DNA of 64,000 nucleotides, from contig JAJDAC010000041.1 of the NCBI GenBank assembly GCA_029262065.1, positions 1 through 64,000 of the forward strand, read 5' to 3'. A program made the position numbers and the translations under genes. Positions within the stretch are counted from its first letter, which is position 1, and every line of letters begins with the position of its first letter. Below the pieces are notes generated by a model. That model was given only the letters and a program-made list of their open reading frames with translations, made no database searches and was not told where the DNA came from. This DNA is from Candidatus Krumholzibacteriota bacterium. Its GTDB lineage: Bacteria > Krumholzibacteriota > Krumholzibacteriia > JAJRXK01. This document shows positions 16,413-21,521 of the stretch, in pieces.

Positions 16413-17444
16413 ATGACCAATCGCCGGCCTCTCGACCTCGGCATCTGGGCGTTCGCCTTCGGCTATTTCGCCTGCTATGTCCCGTACTCCGCGCTGACCA
16501 AGGCGCTGTCGCGCGGAATGCTCGAGAAGATGACCGAGGCCCCCAGCTCGGGCTTCGTCCTGCTCCCCGTTTCCGCATCGGCATCGTTGGTGGGCATGCT
16601 CACGTTCATCACGCTCATGGGATGGTGGAAGTACGCCGGACGACAAACGCTTTTCGGCTTCAACTTTCCGTTTCCAAACCGTTGGACGCTGTTCTCGGGA
16701 TTCTGCACGGCGTGCATCATCGGCACTACGACGCTGGCCTACACGTTCCAAGGCGTCTCCATCGTGTTCATGATGCTGCTCATGCGAGGCGGTGTCCTGA
16801 TCCTCGCGCCCGTGGTCGACGCGCTGAGCCATCGTAAAGTGCGCTGGTTTTCGTGGGTGGGGCTGGCCTTCAGCATGGCGGCGCTGATCGTGGCCTTCAT
16901 CGAACGGGCCGATGCAGGTCTGGCCTTGAAAACGGTAGCGGTGATCGATGTGGCCATCTACCTGGCCAGCTACTTCGTACGACTCCGATTCATGAGCCGG
17001 CTCGCGAAATCGGATGACCTGGAAGCACGCACACGCTACTTCGTGGAAGAACAGATGGTGGCCACGCCCATTGTAGTCATCACCCTGATCGTGTTGGCGC
17101 TCATCAACAACGGAGCCATAACGGCCGACGTCCGGGCCGGCTTCACCCAGATCCCGGGCAGCAATATCTTCTGGGAAGTGGTTCTGGTAGGCCTGTTTTC
17201 CCAAGGCACCGGCGTCTTCGGCGGGTTGGTGCTGTTGGATAAGAGCGAGAACACCTACGCAGTTCCAGTCAACCGAAGCTCAAGCATCATGGCCGGCGTG
17301 GTAGCCACCTACAGTCTTCATCTTCTGCTCGGTGCGCGGGTACCCAGCCGGTACGAAGGAGTCGGTGTGGTGCTGATCATCGTGGCGATCCTGTTTTTGA
17401 CGGTGCCCACTTTGATGGCCAGGAAGAACGCTTCAGCCTCCTAG
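16413..17444 (+). CDS. DMT-like polytopic membrane transporter
   Basis: A 343-aa protein with about ten hydrophobic helices and few charged loops, in the size range of drug/metabolite transporters, but without an obvious duplicated EamA signature. Helix-capping sequence MMLLMRGGVLILAPVVDAL near residue 125-143 and NRSSSIMAGVVATY near 287-300 are in the positions where DMT proteins have conserved helix 4 and 9 ends. The substrate is unknown. The TAG stop shares its last base with the first arm of repeat element A, so the repeat lies directly at the 3' end of the gene. Confidence 0.65.
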   Translation: MTNRRPLDLGIWAFAFGYFACYVPYSALTKALSRGMLEKMTEAPSSGFVLLPVSASASLVGMLTFITLMGWWKYAGRQTLFGFNFPFPNRWTLFSGFCTACIIGTTTLAYTFQGVSIVFMMLLMRGGVLILAPVVDALSHRKVRWFSWVGLAFSMAALIVAFIERADAGLALKTVAVIDVAIYLASYFVRLRFMSRLAKSDDLEARTRYFVEEQMVATPIVVITLIVLALINNGAITADVRAGFTQIPGSNIFWEVVLVGLFSQGTGVFGGLVLLDKSENTYAVPVNRSSSIMAGVVATYSLHLLLGARVPSRYEGVGVVLIIVAILFLTVPTLMARKNASAS

Positions 17445-17610
17445 GTTACGGCCGGCGCATGACACCAATAGGTTACGGGCCGGCGCATGACACCAATAGG
17501 TTACGGCCTCACTAAGCTTCCCCCGGCGGACTAGTTCAGCTCGCATTCAGGCATCGGGGCGCCGGGGTCCAGAATCGTTCGGCCGTAACCTATTGGTGTC
17601 ACGCGCCTGC
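17444..17610 (-). repeat. structured repeat element A
   Basis: Inverted copy of a three-member repeat family. Two tandem arms (17444-17470 and 17471-17498) and a third partial arm precede a ~75-bp conserved core; a matching inverted arm follows at 17581-17610. All arms carry the word ACACCAATAGGTTACGG or its complement. The core holds CCCCGGCG facing CGCCGGGG, giving an inner GC stem inside the outer arm stem. Relative to copies B and C the core is reversed. The first arm begins on the last base of the stop codon of the membrane-protein gene. Confidence 0.9.
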
Positions 17611-17773
17611 AGCTCGATGCATGGGAGCAGGACAGGCCAACTAGTCATCTCGATTTGTCCAGAACAGCTTGCTATCAACCCTGCAACGTCAGACAGGTCG
17701 CGAGCGAATGTCCAATGCCTTGTTGCCAGCCTTCACGGAACGCCCTACAAGATTGGCGACCGGGCTGCGCCTG
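17611..17773. other. spacer between repeat elements A and B
   Basis: No gene, terminator or recognisable mobile-element remnant was seen here. Base composition is more balanced than in flanking genes, and short open frames in it lack support. Confidence 0.5.
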
Positions 17774-17960
17774 AGCATCGCTGCAGGCGGGGTGACACCC
17801 AATGGTTAAGGCTGAACGATTCTGGACCCCGGCGCCCCGGTGCCTGAATGCCAATTCGGAACAGTCCGCCGGGGGAAGCTTAGTGAAGACGTATCCATTG
17901 GGTGTCACCCCGCCGGCACCGAAGCCCACGTATCCAGTGGGTGTCACCCCGCCGACACCG
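17774..17960 (+). repeat. structured repeat element B
   Basis: Second member of the repeat family. It has one left arm (17774-17815, GGCGGGGTGACACCCAATGG), the conserved core with CCCCGGCG / CGCCGGGG, and two tandem right arms (about 17889-17916 and 17930-17957). The element-specific word is CACCCAATGG in two arms and CACCCACTGG in the third. The element ends 17 bp before the ATG of the next gene, and AAGGA in that gap serves as its ribosome-binding site. Confidence 0.9.
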
Positions 17961-17977
17961 GAACCAAGGATGGTCGA

Positions 17978-19084
17978 ATGTTCTCGGGAATTGCACACGT
18001 CAGAACACGATGCATTGCCATTTGCTGCACGACCCTCGCACTCGCCGGGTGCGCCAAACCAGAACCGGTTCCACCACAACCACCCACCACACCGTCGGAA
18101 GTGCGAACGTACCTCGAGGGCTTTCTCGGGCAGGAGAAGTCGCCGCCATCGCTGTCCCTGGCCGTGGCTTTGGGCAGCGAACTCGAGCTACTCGAAACTG
18201 TGGGGCTACACAACCGCGACGGCGGTGACGCTACGCCGGAGACCCCGTATCGCGTGTACGCGTTGTCCATGGGTGTAACCGCAGTTGCCATCATGCAGCT
18301 CTGGGAAGCCGGCACCATAGAACTCACCGATCCCATCCGGCGCTACGTACGCGAACTTCCACCTAGCTACGAGCAGGTTCAAATCCAACACCTACTGACG
18401 CACACCGCCGGAGTACGTCATTACCGCGAGGGATCGGACGAAGCCGCCTCCAAGCGGCAATACACTTCCATCGGCGAAGCCAGCGCAGTGTTTCGCGACG
18501 ATCCGTTGTTGTTCGAACCGGGCACGCAGCACCATTTCTCGGCGTTCGGGTTCGCCTTGTTGGAAGGCGTTATCGAAAATGCCTCGGGCCAACCGTTCGA
18601 AGACTACCTTCGTGGCTACATCTGGGGTCCGGCACAAATGACCCAGACGCAACTTCACGCGCCCGGCCGTTCGATTCCAGGAATGGCGGTGGGCTACTCT
18701 TTTCAGGGATTCTGGTTCCTGAAGAAACAACACGCGGTGAGCGTACCTGGCGAAACCGGCCGCTACGCCGCGAGCGGAATGGTGAGTACGGCCCAAGACC
18801 TGGTTCGCCTGTTCATTGCCCTGCAGTCCGGCACGCTTCTCGAAAGAAACTCGATCGCCACGATGTTTGAGGCAGCGTTCCCCGACGTTGCCCCGACCCA
18901 GGCTCTGGGATGGACCGTCGAAGACGACGGTGCGTTGATCACGCTATCGACCGACGGCATCGGTTACACCGGTATAGTGATGCACTGGCCACGAGAAAAC
19001 CTGACGGGGGCTTTGCTGGTGAATCAAACGCCGTTCGACGAGCGAAGTGAAACGCTTCTTGGAGCTCTGGCAACAGTTCGATGA
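17978..19084 (+). CDS. beta-lactamase-fold lipoprotein, catalytic residues lost
   Basis: A 368-aa lipoprotein (lipobox LAGC, Cys25) of the class C beta-lactamase/serine hydrolase fold; HLLTHTAGV at 138-146 is the family hallmark. Key catalytic motifs are replaced: in the S-x-x-K position TPYRVYALSMGVTA gives Ala95-Leu-Ser-Met98, the Y-x-N motif reads Phe187-Ser-Ala189, and the H/K-x-G motif reads Tyr330-Thr-Gly332. It should therefore not acylate beta-lactams or peptides by the usual mechanism. The start was placed at the ATG preceded by AAGGA; upstream in-frame sequence is repeat element B. It may bind cell-wall or other ligands. It is followed after 99 bp by the beta-helix gene. Confidence 0.85.
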   Translation: MFSGIAHVRTRCIAICCTTLALAGCAKPEPVPPQPPTTPSEVRTYLEGFLGQEKSPPSLSLAVALGSELELLETVGLHNRDGGDATPETPYRVYALSMGVTAVAIMQLWEAGTIELTDPIRRYVRELPPSYEQVQIQHLLTHTAGVRHYREGSDEAASKRQYTSIGEASAVFRDDPLLFEPGTQHHFSAFGFALLEGVIENASGQPFEDYLRGYIWGPAQMTQTQLHAPGRSIPGMAVGYSFQGFWFLKKQHAVSVPGETGRYAASGMVSTAQDLVRLFIALQSGTLLERNSIATMFEAAFPDVAPTQALGWTVEDDGALITLSTDGIGYTGIVMHWPRENLTGALLVNQTPFDERSETLLGALATVR

Positions 19085-19183
19085 ACGCTCGTCCCTACGC
19101 GCTGATCGCAAACGGGTGCGGTCACCGTCCAGGACTCCAGCTGTGCTACAATGTGGTCGCACACCCTCCCAAGGTCGTGAGCC

Positions 19184-20719
19184 ATGATCGTTCTCTCCCG
19201 CTCGATCCCATTCCTACTGCTCGCCATCTGCACCAGTTGGCTCACGCCAGCCAATGCCACTGCTCGCATTTGGTACGTCAAGGTCGATGGAACCGGAGAC
19301 GTCCCGCGTTTTCAAGATGCGGTGGATGTTGCCCAACCGGGAGACGTCGTATTGGTGGGACCGGGGCGCTACACCTGGACCAACCAGGGTCCCGCCAGTG
19401 AACGCGGGCACGGCCTGATCGAACTGTGGATCGATCGTCCCCGTGGCGTCACCTACATTTCCGAAGAAGGACCAGAGAACACCATCCTGGACGCCGAGGG
19501 ACAGAATCGGGTGGTGTTTGCGAACGGCAACAACGATCCACGATTTCCCGTCGAGTTTGTCTTCTCGGGCTTTACCATTACCGGCGGCGTGGCACCCGAA
19601 GCGCCACCAGAACCGCTGACGCAAGGCGGCGGCCTGGTGTTGCACCTTACCTACCCCATTATCGAGAACTGCATCTTCATAGACAACGAAGCCGAAACCG
19701 GCGGCGGCGCCTTCGTGGGAGGAATAAACGCAGCCCTGTTCCGCGACTGCCAGTTCATCGACAACCGGGCCCTGGCCGGTGCGGGCATGCTCATCATGCA
19801 CAGCTTCGAAGAAACGGTAGTCGAGGACTGCACATTCATCGGTAACCTGGCCTTCGAGTACGACACCGGTCAGGGCGGCACGGGCGGCGGCCTTTTTTGC
19901 CTCAACAACAAATACCGAGTCGAGCGTTGCACATTCTACGGCAATCGCTCAGCCGACACTGGCGCCGCGTTCTACAGTTTCAATTCGAAGCCTGGCATAG
20001 TGCGTTACAACTCCTTCCGGGACAATCGGAACGAGGATTTCTCGGTGGGGGCCGCGGTCTACCACCGCGTGGATACCGACTACCTCGATGGAGCATCGCA
20101 GATCGAGTTCTCAAACAATCTCATCGCATCCAACAACCCCGCGAAGGCGATGGTATACGAGACCGCCGTGGTCATGGACATGGCCTGCAACAACATCTAC
20201 GGCAACTCCGGCGGAAACTGGATCGACAACCTGGCGTCGCACCTCGAACGAGACGGCAATATTCAAGAGAACCCGATGTTCTGCGTCGACGATGGCGGAT
20301 ACACGTGGACCGTCTCCGAATATTCTCCGATGCTGGCCGCGAACAACTCGTGCGCAACCAACATCGGCCGAATAGATGATGGCGGCGCCTGCGGCAACTT
20401 CGAACCACCGGAAATCGAACCCGAGATCCGAAACTTCCTGGTTCACACGCCCGCGCCCAATCCGTTTCTACCCAGCGCGAACAACGCGACGACGCTCAGC
20501 TTCGAACTACCGCTAAGCGGACCGGTAACCGTGGTCGTCTACGACATCAGTGGCCGCAAGGTAAAGGAACTGGAGTCCAGTTTCCGCGCGGCGGGAGCCA
20601 ACACGGTGGCGTGGTCGGGCCGGGACGAGTCTGGATCGGCCGTGGCCGCCGGCGTCTACCTGATGCGGGTTCAGAGCGAAGCGGGGACAGCAAGCGAGCG
20701 GGTTGTGGTGATTCGGTAG
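19184..20719 (+). CDS. secreted right-handed beta-helix protein with sorting domain
   Basis: A 511-aa secreted protein. Signal peptide about residues 1-27 (ending ANATA). Residues 28-400 hold short repeats of the pectate-lyase/NosD-like parallel beta-helix, recognisable from the FQDAVDVAQPGDVVLVGPG opening and repeated I-x-N-C-x-F-x-x-N turns. The last ~85 residues, starting at PAPNPFLPSANNATTLSFEL, form a FlgD-like Ig/type IX sorting-like domain ending in a beta strand. Such domains direct secretion or surface anchoring in FCB-group bacteria. No catalytic residues could be assigned, so ligand or polysaccharide binding is as likely as lyase activity. The stop codon abuts repeat element C. Confidence 0.85.
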   Translation: MIVLSRSIPFLLLAICTSWLTPANATARIWYVKVDGTGDVPRFQDAVDVAQPGDVVLVGPGRYTWTNQGPASERGHGLIELWIDRPRGVTYISEEGPENTILDAEGQNRVVFANGNNDPRFPVEFVFSGFTITGGVAPEAPPEPLTQGGGLVLHLTYPIIENCIFIDNEAETGGGAFVGGINAALFRDCQFIDNRALAGAGMLIMHSFEETVVEDCTFIGNLAFEYDTGQGGTGGGLFCLNNKYRVERCTFYGNRSADTGAAFYSFNSKPGIVRYNSFRDNRNEDFSVGAAVYHRVDTDYLDGASQIEFSNNLIASNNPAKAMVYETAVVMDMACNNIYGNSGGNWIDNLASHLERDGNIQENPMFCVDDGGYTWTVSEYSPMLAANNSCATNIGRIDDGGACGNFEPPEIEPEIRNFLVHTPAPNPFLPSANNATTLSFELPLSGPVTVVVYDISGRKVKELESSFRAAGANTVAWSGRDESGSAVAAGVYLMRVQSEAGTASERVVVIR

Positions 20720-20905
20720 CATCGCTGTAGGCGGGCTGACATCAAATGGTTAAGTCACTAGGCTTCGCTGCAGGCGGGGTGACATCAAATGGTTGCGGCT
20801 GAACGATTCTGGACCCCGGCGCCCCGGTGCTTGAATGCGAGTTTGAAACAGTTCGCCGGGGGAAGCTTAGTGAAGCCGTAACCATTTGATGTCACCCCGC
20901 CGGCC
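20720..20905 (+). repeat. structured repeat element C
   Basis: Third member of the family. Two tandem left arms (20720-20753, ending near TCAAATGGTTA, and 20763-20789) precede the core with CCCCGGCG / CGCCGGGG and one inverted right arm (20876-20904). All arms carry ACATCAAATGGTT or its complement. The left arm begins right after the beta-helix gene stop, and the right arm supplies the last codons and TGA stop of the NUDIX gene read on the other strand. Confidence 0.9.
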
Positions 20906-21521
20906 CAAAGCCAGAAATCGCCAACGACGCCCACTCTTCCCAAGCTCCACCTTCCGGCGCTTCCTCAAGCGAGTCGATGTTTCGCCAAGCCGATCGGTGC
21001 GGCTCGGCCTGGGCGTCAACGCGCTCGGTGATCTCTTCGCGAGATAGCCCCAGCAATGCCACGTTCACGGAGTAGAGAATTCCCACGTGCACACTGCTCA
21101 CATCGGTAGCGTCGCTGTTGATGAACCCGCGCATGGTGAATTGGCCCGGGGGAACCTCGAGGCCGGTTTCCTCATGCAGCTCGCGCAGCGCGCAGGCCAG
21201 AAATAGTCCCACTTCGCGCGCCTCGGGAGCGGTGCGATCGATCGGTTCGATATGACCGCCGAAACCAACGGTCCACAGTCCACCCAAGCGAGACTCGCTG
21301 TGCTTGACCTGTCGCTGATAGCAAAGAACTTCGTCACCAAGGGTCAGTACCAGGTAAGGGATGACCTGCTTGAAGTGGCTGCAGTGCTCCATGTATTCGC
21401 GCTCGGCGAAGAACGCGGCCTGTTCCACTTGCTCGAGGTCGATGGCCGACATGTCCAGCAGGCCCTGGGGAGACAGACGCGGAAACAACTGGCTGCGGGG
21501 CACGACCATTACGAATTTCAA
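20892..21521 (-). CDS. NUDIX hydrolase-like protein
   Basis: A 209-aa protein with a NUDIX domain in the middle: the box runs from GGHIEPID near residue 88 to ACALRELHEETGLEV near 110-124, with the R-E-x-x-E-E core intact but a longer than usual spacer between the Gly and the Arg-Glu part. NUDIX enzymes hydrolyse nucleoside diphosphate-linked compounds in the cytosol. It follows the epimerase gene by 21 bp, so the two may act on the same sugar nucleotide. The last residues, FGPAG and the TGA, are encoded by the arm of repeat element C, which suggests the element inserted into or replaced the original 3' end. Confidence 0.8.
   Translation of the reverse strand: MKFVMVVPRSQLFPRLSPQGLLDMSAIDLEQVEQAAFFAEREYMEHCSHFKQVIPYLVLTLGDEVLCYQRQVKHSESRLGGLWTVGFGGHIEPIDRTAPEAREVGLFLACALRELHEETGLEVPPGQFTMRGFINSDATDVSSVHVGILYSVNVALLGLSREEITERVDAQAEPHRSAWRNIDSLEEAPEGGAWEEWASLAISGFGPAG

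Follow-up and report, generated by a model that had tools for sequence, protein, structure and literature searches.

A dispersed hairpin repeat of Krumholzibacteriota with a conserved core and locus-specific mirrored arms, probably written by template switching

Repetitive extragenic palindromic sequences (REPs) measure 20-40 bp, are described as carrying a GTAG or CGTC tag in two large super-families and are associated with REP-associated tyrosine transposases (RAYTs). In the same accounts they and their composites, the bacterial interspersed mosaic elements (BIMEs) and REP doublets forming hairpins (REPINs), are dispersed extragenic palindromes, often arranged as inverted pairs and mostly located at gene 3' ends (PMC3116915, PMC2817692, PMC3733652). 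Copying of a reverse complement by template switching has been described for RNA genes, where new stems arise and old ones regain their pairing in this way (Monttinen & Loytynoja 2022, PMC8794818), and template switching that makes or repairs stems is also documented in PMC7202029 and PMC8604942. Here we analysed a window of 64,000 nucleotides from a Candidatus Krumholzibacteriota bacterium (GCA_029262065.1, contig JAJDAC010000041.1, positions 1 to 64,000), which harbors three hairpin elements, A, B and C, each consisting of a core flanked by two inverted arms. With a probability of about 0.62 we regard them as members of a REP-like family of dispersed hairpins, whose core is conserved and whose locus-specific arms are written and re-homogenised by template switching. 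About 65 hairpins of this family were found overall: this genome has 21, and about 45 come from other families within its bacterial class; these copy counts are lower bounds, the genomes are partly incomplete and the gene calls come from a simple codon model.

At four loci the gene's own 3' end forms the left arm, of which the right arm is an inverted copy: purA, hslU, an HDOD gene and a putative topoisomerase VI-A gene. One example is purA of the relative G061 (C730:12007-12181), whose left arm comprises 48 nt of coding sequence, stop codon included, and encodes a C-terminus that is conserved in relatives. The right arm is identical to it at 52 of 57 positions, the core-proximal 39 nt being perfect. 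In 28 relatives with a full purA, a tRNA-Lys gene lies downstream of it, and a TTGAC box is mostly located 0-48 nt past the purA stop. In G061 this distance is 125 nt, and the insert consists of the core plus the inverted copy. Neither the core nor the copy is present in the purA–tRNA-Lys gap of any of the 28 relatives, where the sole hairpin is part of an unrelated insertion; the evidence for an empty site thus comes from one locus. Two further observations concern the same gap: a different insertion in G024 (L151) has the terminal inverted repeats CAGGCTGTTGAAAAACT...GTTTTTCAACAGCCTG and resembles a miniature inverted-repeat transposable element (MITE) or a short insertion sequence, and G076 (L149) has about 80 extra bases without the core.

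The other cases follow the same pattern. The right arm is an inverted copy of the gene end at 78 of 85 aligned bases for the HDOD gene and at 52 of 61 for hslU, the left arm of which encodes DLSRYIL*, presumably the conserved end of HslU. For the gene that presumably encodes topoisomerase VI subunit A, the alignment spans 77 nucleotide columns, and in G062 the end of a 667-aa gene is mirrored at 27 of 27 positions. Whole inverted copies of gene 3' ends, 57-90 nt long, were inserted, and this calls for a copying mechanism. Real gene stops were found in seven left arms and in no right arm, whose hits are short spurious frames. The polarity of the copy is from the left to the right flank of the core in every case, as snap-back from the 3' end of the core would give. 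Arm identity is perfect beside the core and falls off outward.

A comparison with described systems shows both likeness and difference. With REPs and BIMEs the family shares the scattered extragenic palindromes at gene 3' ends, but it differs from them by its conserved core, its locus-specific arms and the lack of a GTAG- or CGTC-type tag at the core ends. The RAYT-type domain Y1_Tnp (PF01797) gave no match in this genome, which is 95.6% complete, while five control genomes were positive, and an identification as a RAYT/REP system was rejected for this reason. To our knowledge, no conserved core is shared among the palindromes of Nematomorpha. These mitochondrial coding palindromes are likewise perfect inverted repeats with arms that include coding sequence (PMC6649704). 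The purA hairpin contains what is expected of a template-switch hairpin, a reverse-complement copy of adjacent ancestral sequence that is absent in relatives. Unlike the template-switch hairpins described for RNA genes (PMC8794818), however, the present ones are tied to a repeated conserved core, occur at many loci and have a fixed polarity. Quasipalindromes of E. coli are likewise imperfect inverted repeats corrected by snap-back synthesis, but they are described as mutational hotspots and not as a repeat family, and inverted copies of gene ends are not reported for them (PMC7202029).

In the window, A (17479-17610, core 17509-17580, core strand plus), B (17783-17917) and C (20770-20904; core strand minus in both) each fold into a single long hairpin whose inner stem is GC-rich and which has two short internal loops. 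Their folding z-scores range from -6.2 to -9.9, and no shuffled sequence folded as well. The cores of 72-73 nt present CCCCGGCG opposite CGCCGGGG, and the arms of 28-31 nt are complementary at 83-94%. The original prediction, made from the letters of the window, had reported a six-base word shared by the arms of each element, and the elements, their places, their folding and the words are all confirmed. CCAATA is present in all three full arms of A (the left arm, its perfect 28-bp tandem copy and the right arm), CCCAAT in the arms of B apart from one extra arm with CCCACT, and TCAAAT in all three arms of C. Each word is one or two substitutions away from the consensus CACCAAAT (arm of a fourth copy, element D, CACCAAATGG), and the extra arms at A, B and C are tandem part-duplications. 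The features are as follows.

17442 to 17478, plus strand: extra left-arm copies of A, a partial copy at 17442-17450, then a full copy of 28 bp that repeats 17478-17505 exactly
17479 to 17508, plus strand: left arm of A, word CCAATA
17509 to 17580, core strand plus: conserved core of A, TCACTAAGCTTC-CCCCGGCG...CGCCGGGG-TCCAGAATCGTTC
17581 to 17610, plus strand: right arm of A, reverse complement of its left arm, 28 of 30 pairs
17783 to 17813, minus strand: right arm of B (core orientation), word CCCAAT
17814 to 17886, core strand minus: conserved core of B
17887 to 17917, minus strand: left arm of B (core orientation), word CCCAAT
17926 to 17960, minus strand: extra arm copy of B, word CCCACT, one base off
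20718 to 20767, plus strand: extra half-unit at C, a TCAAAT arm and, after it, the core motif TCACTAGGCTTC, oriented opposite to C
20770 to 20800, minus strand: right arm of C (core orientation), word TCAAAT
20801 to 20873, core strand minus: conserved core of C
20874 to 20904, minus strand: left arm of C (core orientation), holding the stop codon and 13 nt of the coding end of the NUDIX gene (...GFGPAG*)
20892 to 21521, minus strand: NUDIX-domain gene, its 3' end inside element C
16413 to 17444, plus strand: 343-aa gene without a Pfam match, ending just upstream of element A

Elsewhere in the window, positions 68-125 are a perfect tandem repeat of 2.3 copies of a 25-bp unit, GCCCCGGCACTCCCACCGATCACCG.

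The repeat is dispersed over the genome. A pattern built from the two internal-loop strands, TCACTNAGCT...AGAATCGTTC, retrieved six copies (A-F; reversed control, 0), and a covariance model (R1) added two with another version of the motif. These additions led to the recognition of type 2 (CTCGCTAGTCCTCGC / CGCTGCGGAAACGCTC) and type 3 (TGCGCTAAGCCGCA / TTGCGGAACCGCGCC), and a second model (R2) raised the total to the 21 counted copies, one of which (N2) was recognised by eye. A covariance search of the genome and its relatives had been proposed with the original prediction and yielded members in both. The short conserved core reads TCACTAAGC…GAATCGTTC in the window and GTCCTCGC…GCTGCGGA in its most widespread form. 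In 863 kb of this genome, inverted repeats with a score of at least 18 numbered 21 versus 1 in the shuffled control; all strong long-range inverted repeats of this sample fall in loci of the family, and chance is thereby excluded. The left edge TGGGCCGG is frequent at the elements, yet it is not enriched across the whole sample.

Facing cores are common, with nine pairs in this genome (e.g. 17479-17917), even between non-convergent genes; in three pairs with an equal combination of types the cores are conserved and the spacers unrelated. Element D (C35:18268-18527, L068) is nested, its outer hairpin with matched CCCATCA arms enclosing an inner hairpin with CCAAAT arms, and the outer arm holds the 3' end of another gene.

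The agreement between arms extends well beyond the six-base word. Of 429 arm positions aligned from 17 elements, 388 are Watson-Crick pairs. E, F and the copies of types 2 and 3 vary over the entire arm of 15-45 bp, and their two arms still match and pair. Their arms share nothing with the GTGACA-word-GGTTA arrangement, whose flanks are confined to A-D. The predicted word is present in A-C, but it is one section of variation that runs along whole arms. In types 2 and 3, 24 of 32 pairs are altered on both sides (0 of 500 shuffles), and only three cells of the 18-pair arm helix show a one-sided (wobble) change. This rarity of one-sided changes is expected from copying and not from stepwise drift.

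Within one class, at least three families share the conserved core. Model R2 found copies in G061 and G015, and the pattern GTCCTCGCN{28,58}GCTGCGGA matched 18 times in G015 (control 0) and eight times in G030 (control 2), with fewer matches in other genomes, several of them due to chance. Reading of the flanks revealed matched arms in G015, G030, G061, G062, G031, G037, G033, G016, G060, G045 and G025, and weaker ones in G020; chance matches (e.g. L346, L348, L349, L351) lack them. A left arm fits its own right arm far better than the right arms of other elements in the same genome. When arms were permuted between elements, the observed match was never reached in 2000 trials in G000, G015, G030 and f3, and was reached in 25 of 2000 in the five-element set G061/62. 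Arm pairing, covariation and permutation thus extend the original rule, variation between elements and agreement within them, to the whole genome and to other genera. A blastn search with element C found no copy among 57 relatives, since the elements have nothing but the core in common; with the core pattern, members were later found in several families. The 16 matches of a type-1 motif scan of genome contigs were all judged to be chance by their flanks. Pattern scans of viral sequences gave one chance match, none with a stricter pattern and an unspecific list with a 16-base pattern, which is too short. A distant blastn search against plasmids returned only short chance pieces, and a literature search with the motif strings no relevant paper.

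Among 43 elements outside this genome, 36 have both neighbours called: 14 lie between convergent, 18 between co-directional and four between divergent genes. The core is sense in 11 and antisense in seven of the co-directional cases. These counts characterise a 3'-end repeat without clear orientation; a constant sense orientation of the core strand relative to the upstream gene did not hold beyond the cases where an arm enters a gene. The GC skew of the sampled stretches is too weak to read element orientation relative to replication. A role at transcript ends, predicted from this position, is plausible.

To account for these observations we infer a polymerase event, its repetition and the following order of steps. 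During DNA synthesis through the core, the core strand would snap back at its 3' end on the core's own pairing (GTCC...GGA), be extended with the left flank as template and then return to the downstream template. The first such event would write the right arm. Later events would re-copy the core-proximal 30-45 bp and leave the outer part to decay, and any base changed in one arm would pass to the other; the words specific to each element would arise from this spread. The tandem extra arms may result from slippage at the stalled hairpin. The hairpins might collect at gene 3' ends either because they do least harm there or because they act on transcript ends, and selection for the fold possibly assists the copying.

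Several points weigh against this template-switching model. The arms in G000 and G015 look like diverged relatives of each other and not like fresh copies of host sequence, so that re-homogenisation is deduced there solely from the match between arms, which selection for pairing could produce as well. No real core without arms was seen among the elements examined, and the order core-then-arms is thus not established. Template switching alone gives no account of the spread of the core. Finally, mismatches in the arms are asymmetric: on the core strand A.C outnumbers G.T by 51:14 (about 55 elements, all genomes examined) and by 34:13 after shared columns are collapsed (p=0.003), with a reversal in G061/62. 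Because A.C on the core strand is a wobble pair on the complementary strand, this hints at selection on that strand, although strand-biased deamination leaves the same signature.

In a different explanation, selection acts on the fold that the hairpin adopts as RNA or single-stranded DNA at transcript ends, its internal motifs serving as a binding or processing site and its arms as a covarying closing helix whose pairing is maintained by compensatory substitutions. Conserved internal loops with freely covarying helices are the classic pattern of an RNA family, and the hairpins show it together with folding z-scores of -6 to -10, a position at gene 3' ends and the strand asymmetry of the mismatches. 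Nevertheless we consider this explanation doubtful. Wobble pairs are very few, the matched changes in the arms of A-D also occur in direct tandem copies that need not pair, sense and antisense cores show no clear preference, and a search of Rfam 15 matched no curated structured-RNA family. Selection of the fold, which the original prediction had also suggested, is compatible with the strand asymmetry but leaves the inverted copying of entire gene ends unexplained.

Alternatively, the whole unit may be a non-autonomous mobile element, the right arm of which is made at each insertion by fold-back copying of the target flank via a single-stranded or RNA intermediate with fixed polarity. The empty site at purA, the left-to-right polarity wherever an arm enters a gene and the presence of arms at nearly every real core seen would agree with such insertions. 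However, among the elements of G000 and G015 an outer GGGCCGG edge and some stretches of the arms are common property, so that arms can be inherited. No target duplication could be defined, and beyond the missing Y1_Tnp no mobility enzyme was linked to the repeats, other recombinases and reverse transcriptases not having been searched for. The hairpins also differ from MITEs with terminal inverted repeats, since their arms vary between copies and target duplications are not resolved in the composites. We accordingly judge this explanation unlikely. Slightly less so, yet speculative, is the proposal that a mobile hairpin lands next to a gene, writes its second arm from that gene's 3' end and keeps this locus-specific mirror up to date.

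A site-specific recombination site with six central bases identical between arms, the use to which the original prediction had tentatively put the word, is very improbable: A-D retain GTGACA and GGTTA around the variable bases, but these flanks are absent from E, F and every copy of types 2 and 3, which vary over the whole arm without conserved boxes around a fixed crossover, and arms can be host coding sequence. Integron attC-like single-stranded sites share the long imperfect hairpin with conserved internal bulges and can be practically dismissed, because the conserved part is the core and not the ends and because inspection, made without an integrase search, found no facing GTT/AAC boxes at the hairpin base that are common to the family.

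Stems that are kept perfect through sequence change are usually taken as proof of RNA function. The present hairpins form a natural family in which, in several members, one arm demonstrably copies the other, conserved coding sequence included, and such arms allow copying to be separated from compensatory selection. The family offers a direct test of how long bacterial palindromes arise and persist. If a mobile hairpin does write its second arm from the gene end beside it, this would represent a possibly new insertion mechanism, which yields inverted instead of direct target duplications with a fixed polarity.
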